A stretch of 49,579 nt of DNA, from contig JAGWTM010000005.1 of assembly GCA_028868975.1 (NCBI GenBank), positions 1 to 49,579 of the forward strand. Reading direction: 5' to 3'. Positions 1,663 to 6,519 of the stretch are shown one piece after another. The notes below the pieces were generated by a model. That model was not told the origin of the DNA, searched no databases, and saw only the letters and a list, made by a program, of their open reading frames with translations. Origin of the DNA: Actinomycetales bacterium (GTDB lineage Bacteria > Actinomycetota > Actinomycetes > Actinomycetales > Microbacteriaceae). A program made the translations under genes and the position numbers. Each line of letters opens with the position of its first letter. The first letter of the stretch is position 1.

Positions 1663-2310
1663 CTAAACCTCGGTGAATTCACCAACGCGCAGGTATTCAA
1701 AACTGCCGCCGCCGGCTTCGGTCACCATCGCGATGCGCCCATTGTTCAACTCGTGACCAAAATCGCTCAGTAGGGCATTGTGGGTGGCAAAACTGCGCTT
1801 GGGTTTGACAGCAGCGATGAAGTCCATCACATCGCCTATCTTCAGCCAAGGCGCGCTCGACGGGCAGGCGAGCAGTTCAACTGAGCGATCGGGCTGAGTG
1901 TATGAATCGCCGGGGTAGTAGAGCTTGTCGTTGACCATCACCCCGCAGTTCTGGATCAGCGGGATGCTGCGGTGGATCTCCTGGTGCAGGTCGCCGAAGA
2001 ACTCGAGAGTGAATGGCCCGACCTCGTAAAAGTCGCCATGGTGCACGGCCGTGACCGGCAGTTCTGGCATGGATGCGCTCAATCGCTCACGCACCTCGTC
2101 GGTGCCGTAGACGTGCAGCTCGGGGTTATTCGCCAAAATGCCGGTCAGTTGCTGCTCAAAACAGTGGTCGTCGTGCTTATGAGTGATCACGACGGCGAGA
2201 ACGTTGTCAACGGAAGCCATCGATTCGGTGTAAAAACCTGGATCGATAAGGATGCGCTCACCGCTCTCGAGAAGCTCGAGGCAGGCGTGACCGTGCTTGG
2301 TGATCTTCAT
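1663..2310 (-). CDS. MBL-fold metal-dependent hydrolase (UlaG-like)
   Basis: A 215-residue metallo-beta-lactamase-fold protein of the short, cytosolic UlaG/UPF0173-like type. The metal ligands are visible: THKHDDHC (HxHxDH, about residue 60), a His in VHHGDF, the metal-bridging Asp in YYPGDSY and a late His in FATHNALL. There is no signal peptide. It starts 9 nt after the multicopper oxidase on the same strand. A TAGCCT hexamer, whose TAG is the oxidase stop codon, ends 6 nt before the ATG, so it may also have its own leaderless promoter. The substrate cannot be told; linkage to copper handling is by position only. Confidence 0.85.
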   Translation of the reverse strand: MKITKHGHACLELLESGERILIDPGFYTESMASVDNVLAVVITHKHDDHCFEQQLTGILANNPELHVYGTDEVRERLSASMPELPVTAVHHGDFYEVGPFTLEFFGDLHQEIHRSIPLIQNCGVMVNDKLYYPGDSYTQPDRSVELLACPSSAPWLKIGDVMDFIAAVKPKRSFATHNALLSDFGHELNNGRIAMVTEAGGGSFEYLRVGEFTEV

Positions 2311-2319
2311 GGCAACAGG

Positions 2320-3900
2320 CTACAACTTGTAGCGAATTGCACCCATCATGCCCGAATCCATGTGGTAGTGGTTGTGGCAGTGGATCGCCCAATCACCTGG
2401 GTTGTCGGCCTGAATGCGAATGGTTACCTGGGTCATCGGTTTGACGATGACCGTGTCTTTGCGAGGTCCATTCGGTAGCTTCTGCCCATACGCGCTAATC
2501 ACCTGGAAGGTGTGGCCATGCAGGTGCATCGGGTGGAACATCGTGGTGTGATTCATGAAGTTCAAATCCACGGTCTCACCCTCGCGCAGTTCGAAAAGTG
2601 AGGCGTGCATGTCGGTGTTGCCGTTGATGTTCCACTTGTAGGGCACCATGGTTCCCATCAACATGGCCTGCAAAGTGCCGGTTGGTGAACCGGTGAGGCG
2701 GTTTTCATCAAGGGTTTCGAGGTCGCTGAACTGAGCAATCGACTTTGGTTTGGTCGGTATGGTTTTCAAGCTAGGTATTGAATTCGCGCCAGTTCGCAGC
2801 ACGGCGCGGGCAGGGGTTCCAGTCTTCGCGACTGGAATTGCATAAGCCGAGAATGCGCCGGATTTGACCGTGATGATTGCGTCGATGCGTTCGCCCATGC
2901 CGAGCAGGGCGCTCTCGGAGTTGTGCGACTTCACGGCAAAGCCGTCGGTGTGCGTGATGGTTAGCGGGTGACCCTCGACGCCGAACACAAAAGCCGTATC
3001 ACTCGCAGCATTGATAACCCTGAGGCGGATGCGCTCGCCGGCCTTGGCCGCAAAAACCTCGGGGTCTTCGGGAACGCGTCCGTTGATGATGTAGGCGGGG
3101 TAGGCCACGTCGCTCATTCCCATGCCAAGCCCGAACTGATCCTGCATTCCGGCCATGTGCATGCCACCCATATTGGACATGTCCATTCCATCCATGTTCA
3201 TGCCACTCATGTCACCCATGTCGTCGTGAGAGTGGGTTGCGGTTTGGAGCCCCTTGAGGATTTCTTCAGGAGTTTTGCCGAGACCCAAAGTCCAGTCGTC
3301 GAGAACTAGAATCCACTCGCGGTCGTAACCGCCTCGCTCGTTCGGGTCATCGATGATGAAGCTGCCGTGTAGCCCGGATTCGATTTGAAGGCCGGTGTGA
3401 GAGTGATACCAGTACGTGCCTGGGTGTGGTGCCTTGAACGACTGAACGTGCGTGGCGCCCGAGGCGACCTCATCCTGGGTGAGCATCGGAACGCCGTCGG
3501 CATCGTTGCGAAGCGCCAAACCGTGAATGTGAATGGATGAGTTCTCGCCGAGCTGATTCTTTTGCGTCAGGCGAACTAGGTCGCCGTATGACGCTCGCAG
3601 AGGAGACCCCGGCACCCGGCCATCGAAGGTTTTGGCCAACGCAGTCTTGCCGGCACCCAGGTCAATCCGTTGTACCGACTGGGTGACATTCAGTCGAGTC
3701 GTTTTATTGCTGGCAAAACGACCCGCTTCGACGCGCTCAATCGCCTTTTTCAATTCGTCGCCGCTGAGGGTTCCGCCCGTGGTGGCTGGGGTGTGCCCGC
3801 TGTGATCCATGCCCGGGTTTAGATTGGCGCAACCGGCGAGTGTGCCAGTGGCGACGACTCCCAAGAGGCCGCCAAGAGCTGTGCGACGCGAAACCGACAT
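2320..3900 (-). CDS. Tat-exported multicopper oxidase lipoprotein (CueO/CopA-like)
   Basis: Predicted copper-detoxifying multicopper oxidase of 526 residues. The N-terminus is a Tat signal (SVSRRTALGG) with a lipobox LAGC (Cys24), so it is expected folded on the outer face of the membrane. All four copper-binding blocks are visible: IHIHGLAL, HPGTYWYHSHTG, HPMHLHGHTF and AIHCHNHYHMDSGMM with the type 1 copper Cys and Met. A methionine-rich insert (about 12 Met within 40 residues near residue 235) and a His/Met-rich N-terminal stretch resemble the copper-binding regions of CueO and PcoA. The ATG is preceded by AAGGAG at 5 nt. It is divergent from csoR over a shared operator, which supports copper-induced expression. 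Confidence 0.93.
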   Translation of the reverse strand: MSVSRRTALGGLLGVVATGTLAGCANLNPGMDHSGHTPATTGGTLSGDELKKAIERVEAGRFASNKTTRLNVTQSVQRIDLGAGKTALAKTFDGRVPGSPLRASYGDLVRLTQKNQLGENSSIHIHGLALRNDADGVPMLTQDEVASGATHVQSFKAPHPGTYWYHSHTGLQIESGLHGSFIIDDPNERGGYDREWILVLDDWTLGLGKTPEEILKGLQTATHSHDDMGDMSGMNMDGMDMSNMGGMHMAGMQDQFGLGMGMSDVAYPAYIINGRVPEDPEVFAAKAGERIRLRVINAASDTAFVFGVEGHPLTITHTDGFAVKSHNSESALLGMGERIDAIITVKSGAFSAYAIPVAKTGTPARAVLRTGANSIPSLKTIPTKPKSIAQFSDLETLDENRLTGSPTGTLQAMLMGTMVPYKWNINGNTDMHASLFELREGETVDLNFMNHTTMFHPMHLHGHTFQVISAYGQKLPNGPRKDTVIVKPMTQVTIRIQADNPGDWAIHCHNHYHMDSGMMGAIRYKL

Positions 3901-3905
3901 CTGAA

Positions 3906-3911
3906 CTCCTT
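3906..3911 (-). promoter_or_regulatory. Shine-Dalgarno of the multicopper oxidase
   Basis: AAGGAG, 5 nt before the ATG at 3900. It is one of the few strong SD sites in this stretch and contrasts with the leaderless-type csoR start on the opposite side of the same operator. Confidence 0.8.
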
Positions 3912-3934
3912 GATCTGGGTATCCTCGCCTGAGG

Positions 3935-3956
3935 AATACCCCCTAGGGGTATTATA
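3935..3956. promoter_or_regulatory. CsoR-type operator with overlapping divergent -10 elements
   Basis: AATACCCCCTAGGGGTATT (3935-3953) has perfect 8-bp inverted arms AATACCCC/GGGGTATT around a 3-nt centre, the G/C tract flanked by TA expected of CsoR-family operators. On the plus strand TATTAT (3950-3955) lies 6 nt before the csoR ATG; on the minus strand TATAAT (3956-3951) is a perfect -10 for the oxidase. The two hexamers overlap by 5 bp and both touch the operator, so one CsoR tetramer could shut off both arms. No good -35 is seen on either side. Confidence 0.85.
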
Positions 3957-3961
3957 GGCGC

Positions 3962-4249
3962 ATGGATGCTGCACTGAAAAAACGAGCCATGCACCGTGGC
4001 AAAATTCTCCAAGGGCAACTTGAGGGTTTGCTGAGAGCCATTGAAAACGAGGACTACTGCATGGACATCATCACGCAGTCGCTTGCCATCCAGAAGTCGC
4101 TGGGCTCTTTGAACAAGCTAATTGTCGAAAACCACATCCAGACCCATGTGGCCCACATGATGCATTCGCACGACCCGCAGGAGCGTCAAAAAGCGATGGC
4201 TGAGCTCGGGCAGATTTTTGAACTGAACAACAATCGAGGCACCAAATGA
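3962..4249 (+). CDS. csoR: CsoR-family copper-sensing repressor (C-H-H ligand set)
   Basis: A 95-residue all-helical metal-sensing repressor (DUF156 family). Copper(I) binding normally releases it from DNA and turns on efflux genes. The ligand positions are Cys33, His58 and His62 (NHIQTHVAHM); most CsoR proteins have Cys at the last place (Cys-His-Cys). A C-H-H set occurs in Thermus thermophilus CsoR, which senses copper, and in the nickel/cobalt sensor RcnR; RcnR also uses His3, which is absent here (MDAALKK). Copper genes on both sides and the CsoR-like operator favour copper. The ATG starts 6 nt after a TATTAT -10 with no room for an SD, so the mRNA is probably leaderless. It overlaps the ATPase start by 4 nt (ATGA). 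Confidence 0.92.
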   Translation: MDAALKKRAMHRGKILQGQLEGLLRAIENEDYCMDIITQSLAIQKSLGSLNKLIVENHIQTHVAHMMHSHDPQERQKAMAELGQIFELNNNRGTK

Positions 4250-6519
4250 ACCACAACGAAATGCAAGCTCACAAGTGCGACCACCACGGCGATAACCCAC
4301 CGATGTGCTCATGTGACCACAACCCAGGCGGCGAATGTCACTGCCCACCAAATGAGTGCAAGTGTGACCAGCAGCACCACCTCGTTGGCGAAACTCAAGA
4401 GGGGCACCACTGCTGCGAAACCGGCGGTGAGCATGACGTGGACAACCACGGCCACAGCCATGATCACTCGGGACACGATCACTCGGGACACGATCACTCG
4501 GGGCACGATCACAGCCACCATGACCCGGGCGCCTTCAAAAAGCAGTTCTGGCTAGCGCTGGGGCTCACCATCCCCACAATTCTGTTTAGCCACACCGTCC
4601 AGATGCTCCTGGGATTCCGGCTCGAATTCGCTTTCAGTTACCTGATTCCAGCGGTGTTCGGTTCAGCGCTCTTTTTCACGGGAGGGCGAGTTTTTCTAAC
4701 CACCGGTTGGGCCGAAATCAAAGCCAAACGGCCCGGCATGATGGCTCTGATCGCTTTGGCCCTGGTGGTCGCGTTCGGCTACTCAAGTTTCATCACGATT
4801 GCCACGGCGGCTAACCTCGGCTGGCAGGGCATGGACTTTTGGTGGGAGCTAGCGGCACTGATCACCATCATGTTGCTCGGTCACTGGATTGAGATGTCTA
4901 GCGTCATGAAGGCATCGGATGCGGTTGGCGCACTCGCGAGTCTGCTCCCGGCTGAAGCGGACCTGATCGAGGATGGCGTGACCCGCAAGGTCTCGCTCAG
5001 CGAGCTCAAGCTGGGTGATCTGGTGATGGTGCGTCCGGGTGCGGCTGTGCCGGCAGACGGTGAAGTAGTCGAGGGCTCATCCAAGCTAAATGAAGCCATG
5101 ATTACCGGTGAATCAGCACCGGTTTTGAAAGAGCCTGGAAGTCTGGTCATCGCGGGCACCATCAACTCAACGAGCGATGTGCTGGGTGAAGGGGCACTGA
5201 CCGTTCGCGTGACGGCTATCGGTGAAAACACCATGCTGGCCGGAATCGTGCGTCTGGTTCGCGAGGCCCAGGAATCGAAGTCCAAGACTCAGGTGCTTGC
5301 CGATAAGGCCGCGGGCTGGCTGTTCTACGCTGCGCTAGGCGCTGCCGTACTGACTGCAGCGATTTGGACCGCGCTCGGCACCCAGACGCCAGATTTCATC
5401 CTCGAACGCATCGTGACCGTGCTGGTGATTGCCTGCCCGCACGCTCTCGGGCTCGCGATTCCGCTAGTTAATGCCATCACTACATCCAAGGCGGCAAGCC
5501 AGGGAATTTTGATTCGAGACCGCCGAGAATTCGAAGCTGCCCGGGCCGTTGATGTCGTGCTTTTCGACAAGACCGGCACGCTAACCACCGGTCAGCGAGG
5601 CTTCATCGCGGCACACCTGGCTCATCAATCGCCACTTCGCAGCACCGATGACCTGATGGCTATCGCGGCTGGACTCGAGCAATTTTCTGAACACTCGATC
5701 GGCCAAGCGATTGTTGCCGAGGCCCAGCGTCGTCGAGTCGAAATCGTTGCCACGACGGACTTCAGAACTGTGCCCGGCCAGGGCGTGGCCGGCGTTCAAG
5801 ATGCCAAGAGCGTTCTCGTCGGTGGTCCAGTTTTGTTGACCGGCCGCAACATTGATGTTCACGTGAGCGACCTGGTGAAGGCCGACGGCGCGAACCAGTC
5901 GGGTAACACCGTTGTCTACGTGGTTCTCGAGGGCCAACTACTTGGTTACATCGAACTGGGTGACGTCATGCGCGAGACTTCGGATCAGGCCATTCACGCC
6001 CTCAAGCTCATGCGCAAGCGAGTCGGTCTAGTTACCGGTGATGCGCAGGGAGTCGCGGCATCGGTTGCTAAACAGCTATCAATCGGTGAGGTCTATGCCG
6101 AGGTGCTGCCGCACCAAAAGGCTGATTTGGTTCGCCGAGTACAGCTGGATCGCTCGCGCGTTGCCATGGTCGGTGACGGAGTCAATGATGCTCCGGCTTT
6201 GGCGCAGGCCGATGTGGGCATCGCGATTGGAGCGGGCACGGATGTGGCCATCGAATCGGCAGGTGTAATTCTGATTTCGAGCGATCCAACCGCTGTTCCT
6301 CAATTGATTGATCTCAGCCGTCGCAGCTATTCGAAGATGGTGCAGAACCTGATTTGGGGTGCTGGGTACAACATCATCGCGATACCGCTCGCGGCTGGCG
6401 CGCTGATGCCATTCGGTTTAGTTCTCTCACCAGCGTTGGGTGCGGTGCTAATGTCGCTCTCGACCATCATCGTCGCAGCTAACGCACAGTTGCTGAGACG
6501 GCCACCGCGCCGCCGCTAA
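4246..6519 (+). CDS. copB: CopB-like P-type copper-exporting ATPase (CPH type) with Cys/His-rich N-terminus
   Basis: A 757-residue P1B-type ATPase that should pump copper out of the cytosol. The transmembrane ligand motif is CPH (397-399), the mark of the CopB-type subgroup. Also seen are TGES in the actuator, DKTGTLT with phosphorylated Asp441, [12 protein letters not shown] in the hinge and about eight membrane helices. Instead of a CxxC heavy-metal domain, the first 95 residues hold 9 Cys (three CxC pairs and one CC) and 23 His, including HDHSG repeats, a likely copper-binding or buffering tail. The gene is translationally coupled to csoR (ATGA overlap, GAGG upstream) and is thus under the same operator. 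Confidence 0.93.
4459..4512 (+). repeat. 15-bp tandem repeat coding for HDHSG
   Basis: About 3.6 copies of a CACGATCACTCGGGA-type unit in frame within the ATPase N-terminus, encoding HDHSG repeats. The units differ at only one or two bases, which suggests recent copy-number change by slippage; copy number may vary between strains. Confidence 0.9.

Follow-up and report, generated by a model that had tools for sequence, protein, structure and literature searches.

Gene organization of the csoR locus

The DNA studied was a window of 49,579 nt, i.e., the whole stretch that was analysed, from an Actinomycetales bacterium of the Microbacteriaceae (GCA_028868975.1, contig JAGWTM010000005.1, forward strand). 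A gap of 61 bp (3901-3961) lies between a gene for a multicopper oxidase on the minus strand and the csoR and copB genes (3962-6519) on the plus strand, which overlap by 4 bases. Operator, boxes, geometry, conservation and gene order were taken from the sequence; repressor binding, metal, induction and start sites are what we infer. The following features were found.

1663-2310, minus strand: MBL-fold metal-dependent hydrolase (PF13483)
2317-2322, minus strand: TAGCCT, the hydrolase's own leaderless -10 box, its TAG being the oxidase stop codon
2320-3900, minus strand: multicopper oxidase (Pfam Cu-oxidase, Cu-oxidase_2, Cu-oxidase_3), His/Met-rich, with a twin-arginine-type lipoprotein signal
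3906-3911, minus strand: oxidase Shine-Dalgarno sequence AAGGAG, 5 nt before the ATG (3900-3898)
3935-3953: CsoR-type (type 2) operator palindrome AATACCCC-CTA-GGGGTATT, core TAC-N9-GTA at 3937-3951
3944, minus strand: predicted oxidase mRNA start, an A at the operator centre, 7 nt past the last base of TATAAT, with T at -18 (3962)
3950-3955, plus strand: TATTAT, -10 box of the csoR-pump transcript, with the TANNNT spacing of related csoR loci
3951-3956, minus strand: TATAAT, -10 box of the oxidase transcript, a sigma-70-like match on the reverse face of the csoR element
3962, plus strand: predicted leaderless csoR mRNA start, the A of the ATG, 7 nt past the last base of TATTAT, with T at -18 (3944)
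3962-4249, plus strand: CsoR/RcnR-family repressor with Cys33-His58-His62 (PF02583, E 1e-17)
3975-3980, minus strand: weak -35-like TTTTCA of the oxidase arm, inside csoR codons 5-7
4246-6519, plus strand: CopB-like copper P1B-type ATPase (TIGR01525, TIGR01511) with CPH motif and His/Cys-rich N-terminus, overlapping the csoR stop

Palindrome, both -10 boxes and their 5-bp overlap were recovered exactly where a preliminary description of the locus had placed them. Its strong Shine-Dalgarno sequence for the oxidase was likewise found, and from the predicted start at 3944 the oxidase mRNA would carry a leader of 44 nt. The csoR ATG at 3962 has no Shine-Dalgarno sequence. The pump N-terminus (4246-4440) contains a metallothionein-like CxC/His-rich stretch; the relatives L005 and L103 have a separate small Cys-rich open reading frame after csoR.

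One CsoR-type operator spans both promoter regions

The palindrome is an inverted repeat with arms of 8 bp and a centre of 3 nt. A single copy of the exact TACCCCNNNGGGGTA is present in the window, and 100 dinucleotide shuffles gave none. Type 2 CsoR operators follow the rule 5'-TACX9GTA-3' (PMC3902906), and the palindrome has this TAC-X9-GTA together with two G/C tracts and an AT-rich inverted repeat outside. Compared with the type 2 operators of Streptomyces lividans (csoR, copZA1, copZA2; PMC3902906), which share TAC-X9-GTA, the window core TACCCCCTAGGGGTA is that of one listed duplex (copZA2), in support of the earlier assignment as a CsoR-type operator. The S. lividans repressor is a biochemically studied Cu(I)-CsoR, whereas the metal residues of the window sensor are C-H-H. 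An operator of this type was also found at orthologous csoR genes. Using a relaxed pattern, only 4 sites were found in the 1.39-Mb genome, with 2 for the reversed-pattern control. A second CsoR-family gene (L130, G000:C24:3362) has genes for a rhodanese and for a flavin disulfide-reductase-like protein as neighbours and is probably of the sulfur-sensing CstR type; its operator TACCCCCTAGGGTA is very similar to that of the window, and cross-talk is possible. A small Cys-rich open reading frame (MCSPANCSNCGKVTWTG...) at L133 (G000:C81:2987) is preceded by a perfect palindrome of 14 bp, TACCCCTAGGGGTA.

Counted from the predicted starts, the operator extends from -25 to -11 on the csoR side and from -7 to +8 on the oxidase side. 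As it spans the promoter regions of both transcripts, one bound repressor should block both, via different contacts. Coupling of the two arms by a single CsoR operator is a well-supported inference.

The sensor belongs to the CsoR/RcnR family

The Trns_repr_metal domain (PF02583) was found with 64.5 bits against a cutoff of 22.8, placing the sensor in the CsoR/RcnR family, and its closest solved structures are CsoR proteins. The Cys-His-Cys ligands of the Mycobacterium tuberculosis/Staphylococcus aureus-type Cu(I)-CsoR are absent from the window sensor, which has Cys33-His58-His62; this C-H-H did not vary when the window protein was aligned with 8 orthologues (9 sequences in all). In the alignment the site corresponds to NHLETC in 2hh7 and to AHLKDH in 3aai, the latter a Thermus thermophilus protein that, like the window sensor, has C-H-H in place of C-H-C. 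The window sensor has R-G-K-I in place of RLXR, the DNA-contact motif of the S. lividans repressor. The preliminary description called it a copper sensor; with Cys-His-His at the metal positions, copper as its metal is suggested by the neighbours, pump and oxidase.

The csoR promoter is leaderless and conserved

Around 80 csoR loci were found by protein pattern, plus genus members. The distance from the end of TANNNT to the csoR start codon is exactly 6 nt in 75 of 82 loci and 7 nt in 6 of 82, while for all ATGs of the window a TANNNT ending 6 nt upstream was found in 6 of 1,311 cases. The leaderless signal described for bacteria is a TANNNT some 12 bp ahead of the start codon (PMC3160421), and M. 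tuberculosis promoters have a TANNNT -10 box with no conserved -35 box (PMC3898074). The csoR gene has this signal and no Shine-Dalgarno sequence, in agreement with both reports. Judged from these spacings, the leaderless csoR proposed before is a conserved property and not a guess from a single sequence. No published evidence was found of bidirectional and leaderless promoters of M. tuberculosis being treated together in one paper.

Comparing 18 genus-level loci, TTGACT or a close variant was found directly before the operator in 12, where the operator is consequently the -35/-10 spacer. This -35 box is absent in the window and in five other loci with hydrolase or cargo gene opposite. We considered its loss as an adaptation of the divergon, since the correlation in the genus is perfect (12/12 versus 0/6), but the carriers form one clade (98/92), which makes it one event, and the idea was dropped. 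Six MAG contigs, several labelled Saccharibacteria or Microgenomates (L053, L073, L079, L081, L082, L105), carry close csoR relatives, mostly as TTGAC-operator-TANNNT-N6-ATG, reflecting either transfer or binning error.

Geometry of the overlapping -10 boxes

TATTAT (plus strand, 3950-3955) and TATAAT (minus strand, 3956-3951) share the 5 bp 3951-3955, and both overlap the right arm of the operator. The predicted starts at 3944 and 3962 are 18 bp apart, both are A, T is found at -18 on both strands, and -11A and -7T are reciprocal. The commonest class of bacterial bidirectional promoters, with divergent starts 7-25 bp apart, usually 18, has reciprocal -11A/-7T, and each strand carries A at +1 and T at -18 (PMC10268837); by its boxes and predicted starts the gap falls into the 18-bp class.

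A shift of 1 bp is enough to put A at -11 and T at -7 when a TANNNT box is read from the opposite strand, whatever its three inner bases. TATTAT gives NATAAT in reverse, so that only A3956 is needed in addition for a perfect TATAAT. As TANNNT is near-symmetric by nature, the sharing of 5 bp is largely automatic. Promoter scans covered sigma-70-like sites only, and TTTTCA-18-TATAAT was the sole match in 3000-5000, with a shuffle mean of 0.7, which makes the minus-strand promoter by itself statistically unremarkable. TTTTCA matches the -35 consensus at 4 of 6 positions, lies in coding DNA and encodes conserved Leu/Lys residues, for which reason it is weak evidence as a -35 box. TATTATA is present in one copy (shuffle mean 0.21). 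The full 18-bp signature was also found at L036, L038 and L040, loci with no divergent gene, and is consequently no proof of reverse firing.

The divergent side: a hydrolase and its probable newcomers

In 14 loci across the Microbacteriaceae, lying among L031-L109, an MBL-fold hydrolase gene diverges from csoR at a distance of 51-91 bp. At L022 and L023 the hydrolase gene faces a CopB gene instead, with an operator of the same type between them. The protein is UPF0173/PRK00685-like, and its repeated divergence from csoR or copB over a CsoR-type operator, also counted at L025, suggests that it is part of the copper regulon. Thirteen of the 14 divergent hydrolase genes have their own TANNNT 6-7 nt before the ATG and therefore have no need of the reverse face of the csoR box.

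The window hydrolase gene (1663-2310) retains TAGCCT-N6-ATG, and the oxidase gene sits between it and csoR. At L018 this position is taken by a gene for a DUF305 lipoprotein; the DUF305 family includes the copper-binding member CopM (PMC4335983). In both cases the hydrolase -10 box begins with the stop codon of the newcomer, and the gap is 9 nt. The two genes are unrelated, and the overlap is made by TAG for the oxidase (2317-2322) and by TAA in TAAGTT for DUF305 (L018:870-875). A third cargo case was sought at L108, where the hydrolase lies 1 kb away, and was discarded as the intervening gene runs the other way.

The oxidase is present in 1 of 67 genomes of the genus. Its closest relatives are at most 47% identical, those on plasmids around 43%, and the gene looks like an arrival by transfer. 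A csoR-oxidase divergon as a widespread unit was rejected, with none found among 38 other oxidase loci. Both newcomers are Shine-Dalgarno-led, lack a leaderless -10 box of their own and have the perfect TATTATA with the whole 18-bp signature. On these grounds the oxidase very probably relies on the csoR -10 box read in reverse. The perfect reverse TATAAT is rare, at only 3 of 81 homologous sites, each of which has a divergent copper-locus gene close by; together with the features of the two newcomers, this is the best sequence evidence for such use. Relatives suggest that the oxidase is a newcomer which took over the reverse side of a promoter that formerly worked one way.

A probable bidirectional promoter with a single repressor site

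We consider it likely that the gap holds a bidirectional promoter governed by a single CsoR operator, in which the csoR side is the older one and the oxidase uses the reverse face. With no copper, the CsoR-family repressor would occupy 3937-3951. It would block the -10 box and the stretch just upstream for the polymerase of the csoR-pump transcript, and the -10 box, the start point and the first transcribed bases for that of the oxidase transcript. Upon binding of copper the repressor would leave, and polymerase could load on TATTATA in either orientation. One orientation would yield the leaderless csoR-copB mRNA, the other the Shine-Dalgarno-led oxidase(-hydrolase) mRNA. The csoR promoter would have existed before the oxidase gene came between csoR and its old divergent neighbour, the hydrolase gene, which kept its leaderless promoter.

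Alternatively, only the csoR direction might be truly regulated. The reverse TATAAT would then be a by-product of TATTAT, and the oxidase would be transcribed weakly from it or from another start, with no selection for coupling. Operator and TATTAT are indeed kept at loci with no divergent gene, and a single base turns TATTATN into the perfect reverse box, so coincidence is possible. The base completing the reverse box varies (G, A, C, T) among hydrolase divergons; this lack of conservation also made us reject the idea that the symmetry was conserved for coupling. We nevertheless regard this explanation as rather unlikely, since the perfect reverse box, where it does occur, always faces a close divergent copper-locus gene, including both cargo genes, which have no other visible promoter. 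In line with this, A follows the box in 5 of 9 genus loci with a close divergent gene versus 0 of 9 with none (one-sided Fisher test by hand, approximately 0.015, kinship ignored; 3 of the 5 divergent genes have their own promoter). It appears most improbable that the operator serves mainly csoR-copB while oxidase transcription starts at some other, unrecognised promoter within csoR or depends on an alternative sigma factor. The restriction of the scans to sigma-70-like sites leaves room for such a promoter; however, they gave a single candidate, and any minus-strand start further upstream must still cross the CsoR site.

Favouring the bidirectional promoter, we find part of the earlier proposal, a symmetric box coupling sensor and oxidase, to be sound: one operator lies over both arms. 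It does not represent a conserved device, because the oxidase is so rare and the usual partner is the hydrolase with its own leaderless promoter. In relatives the spacing of the csoR arm is kept; the perfect reverse box is not. Competition of both arms for polymerase, also proposed earlier, is doubtful. In five bidirectional promoters of Escherichia coli basal firing was too low, and competition was seen only on strong one-sided activation (PMC12825309). By analogy, it would not be expected at basal firing but could appear if one arm is strong after derepression.

More tentatively, the slot between csoR and hydrolase might in this lineage be a place where new copper genes (the oxidase, DUF305 in L018) come under CsoR by firing from the csoR -10 box in the reverse direction. 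Each newcomer ends exactly at the start of the old neighbour's leaderless promoter, its stop codon opening that -10 box. If so, two operons would be regulated with no new promoter built.

Comparison with known systems

Regulation of both RNAs of a bidirectional promoter by one repressor is already known, as is the coupling of CopB and a multicopper oxidase by CsoR in S. aureus. In E. coli acrR/acrAB (PMC12825309; class in PMC10268837) there is, like in the window, one near-symmetric -10 region with an autorepressor gene divergent from efflux genes, and AcrR represses both RNAs of the acrA/acrR promoter (PMC12825309). That system has a TetR-family repressor and extra activators, while the window has a CsoR-family repressor and a leaderless sensor-pump operon opposite an oxidase. 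In S. aureus, CsoR acts on copB-mco at the copB promoter (PMC6191537), one CsoR site coupling a CopB-type pump and a multicopper oxidase as in the window. However, copB-mco is a co-directional operon with csoR elsewhere on the chromosome, whereas csoR-copB and the oxidase gene of the window diverge from one site. The csoR-cueA locus of Bradyrhizobium (PMC5057107), described as a divergon, also combines csoR with a copper gene, in a different phylum and with a different partner, the comparison being based on its published description.

What is new is the combination of a single CsoR site, a leaderless operon on one face and a Shine-Dalgarno-led newcomer on the opposite one, while relatives still show the ancestral layout. 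Leaderless and Shine-Dalgarno-led translation initiation would both respond to the same copper signal. Furthermore, an MBL-fold hydrolase becomes linked to the CsoR regulon across the Microbacteriaceae. The locus is a compact and testable case in which a single base and a single inserted gene may turn a one-way promoter into a regulated two-way switch, and relatives keep the state before the change.
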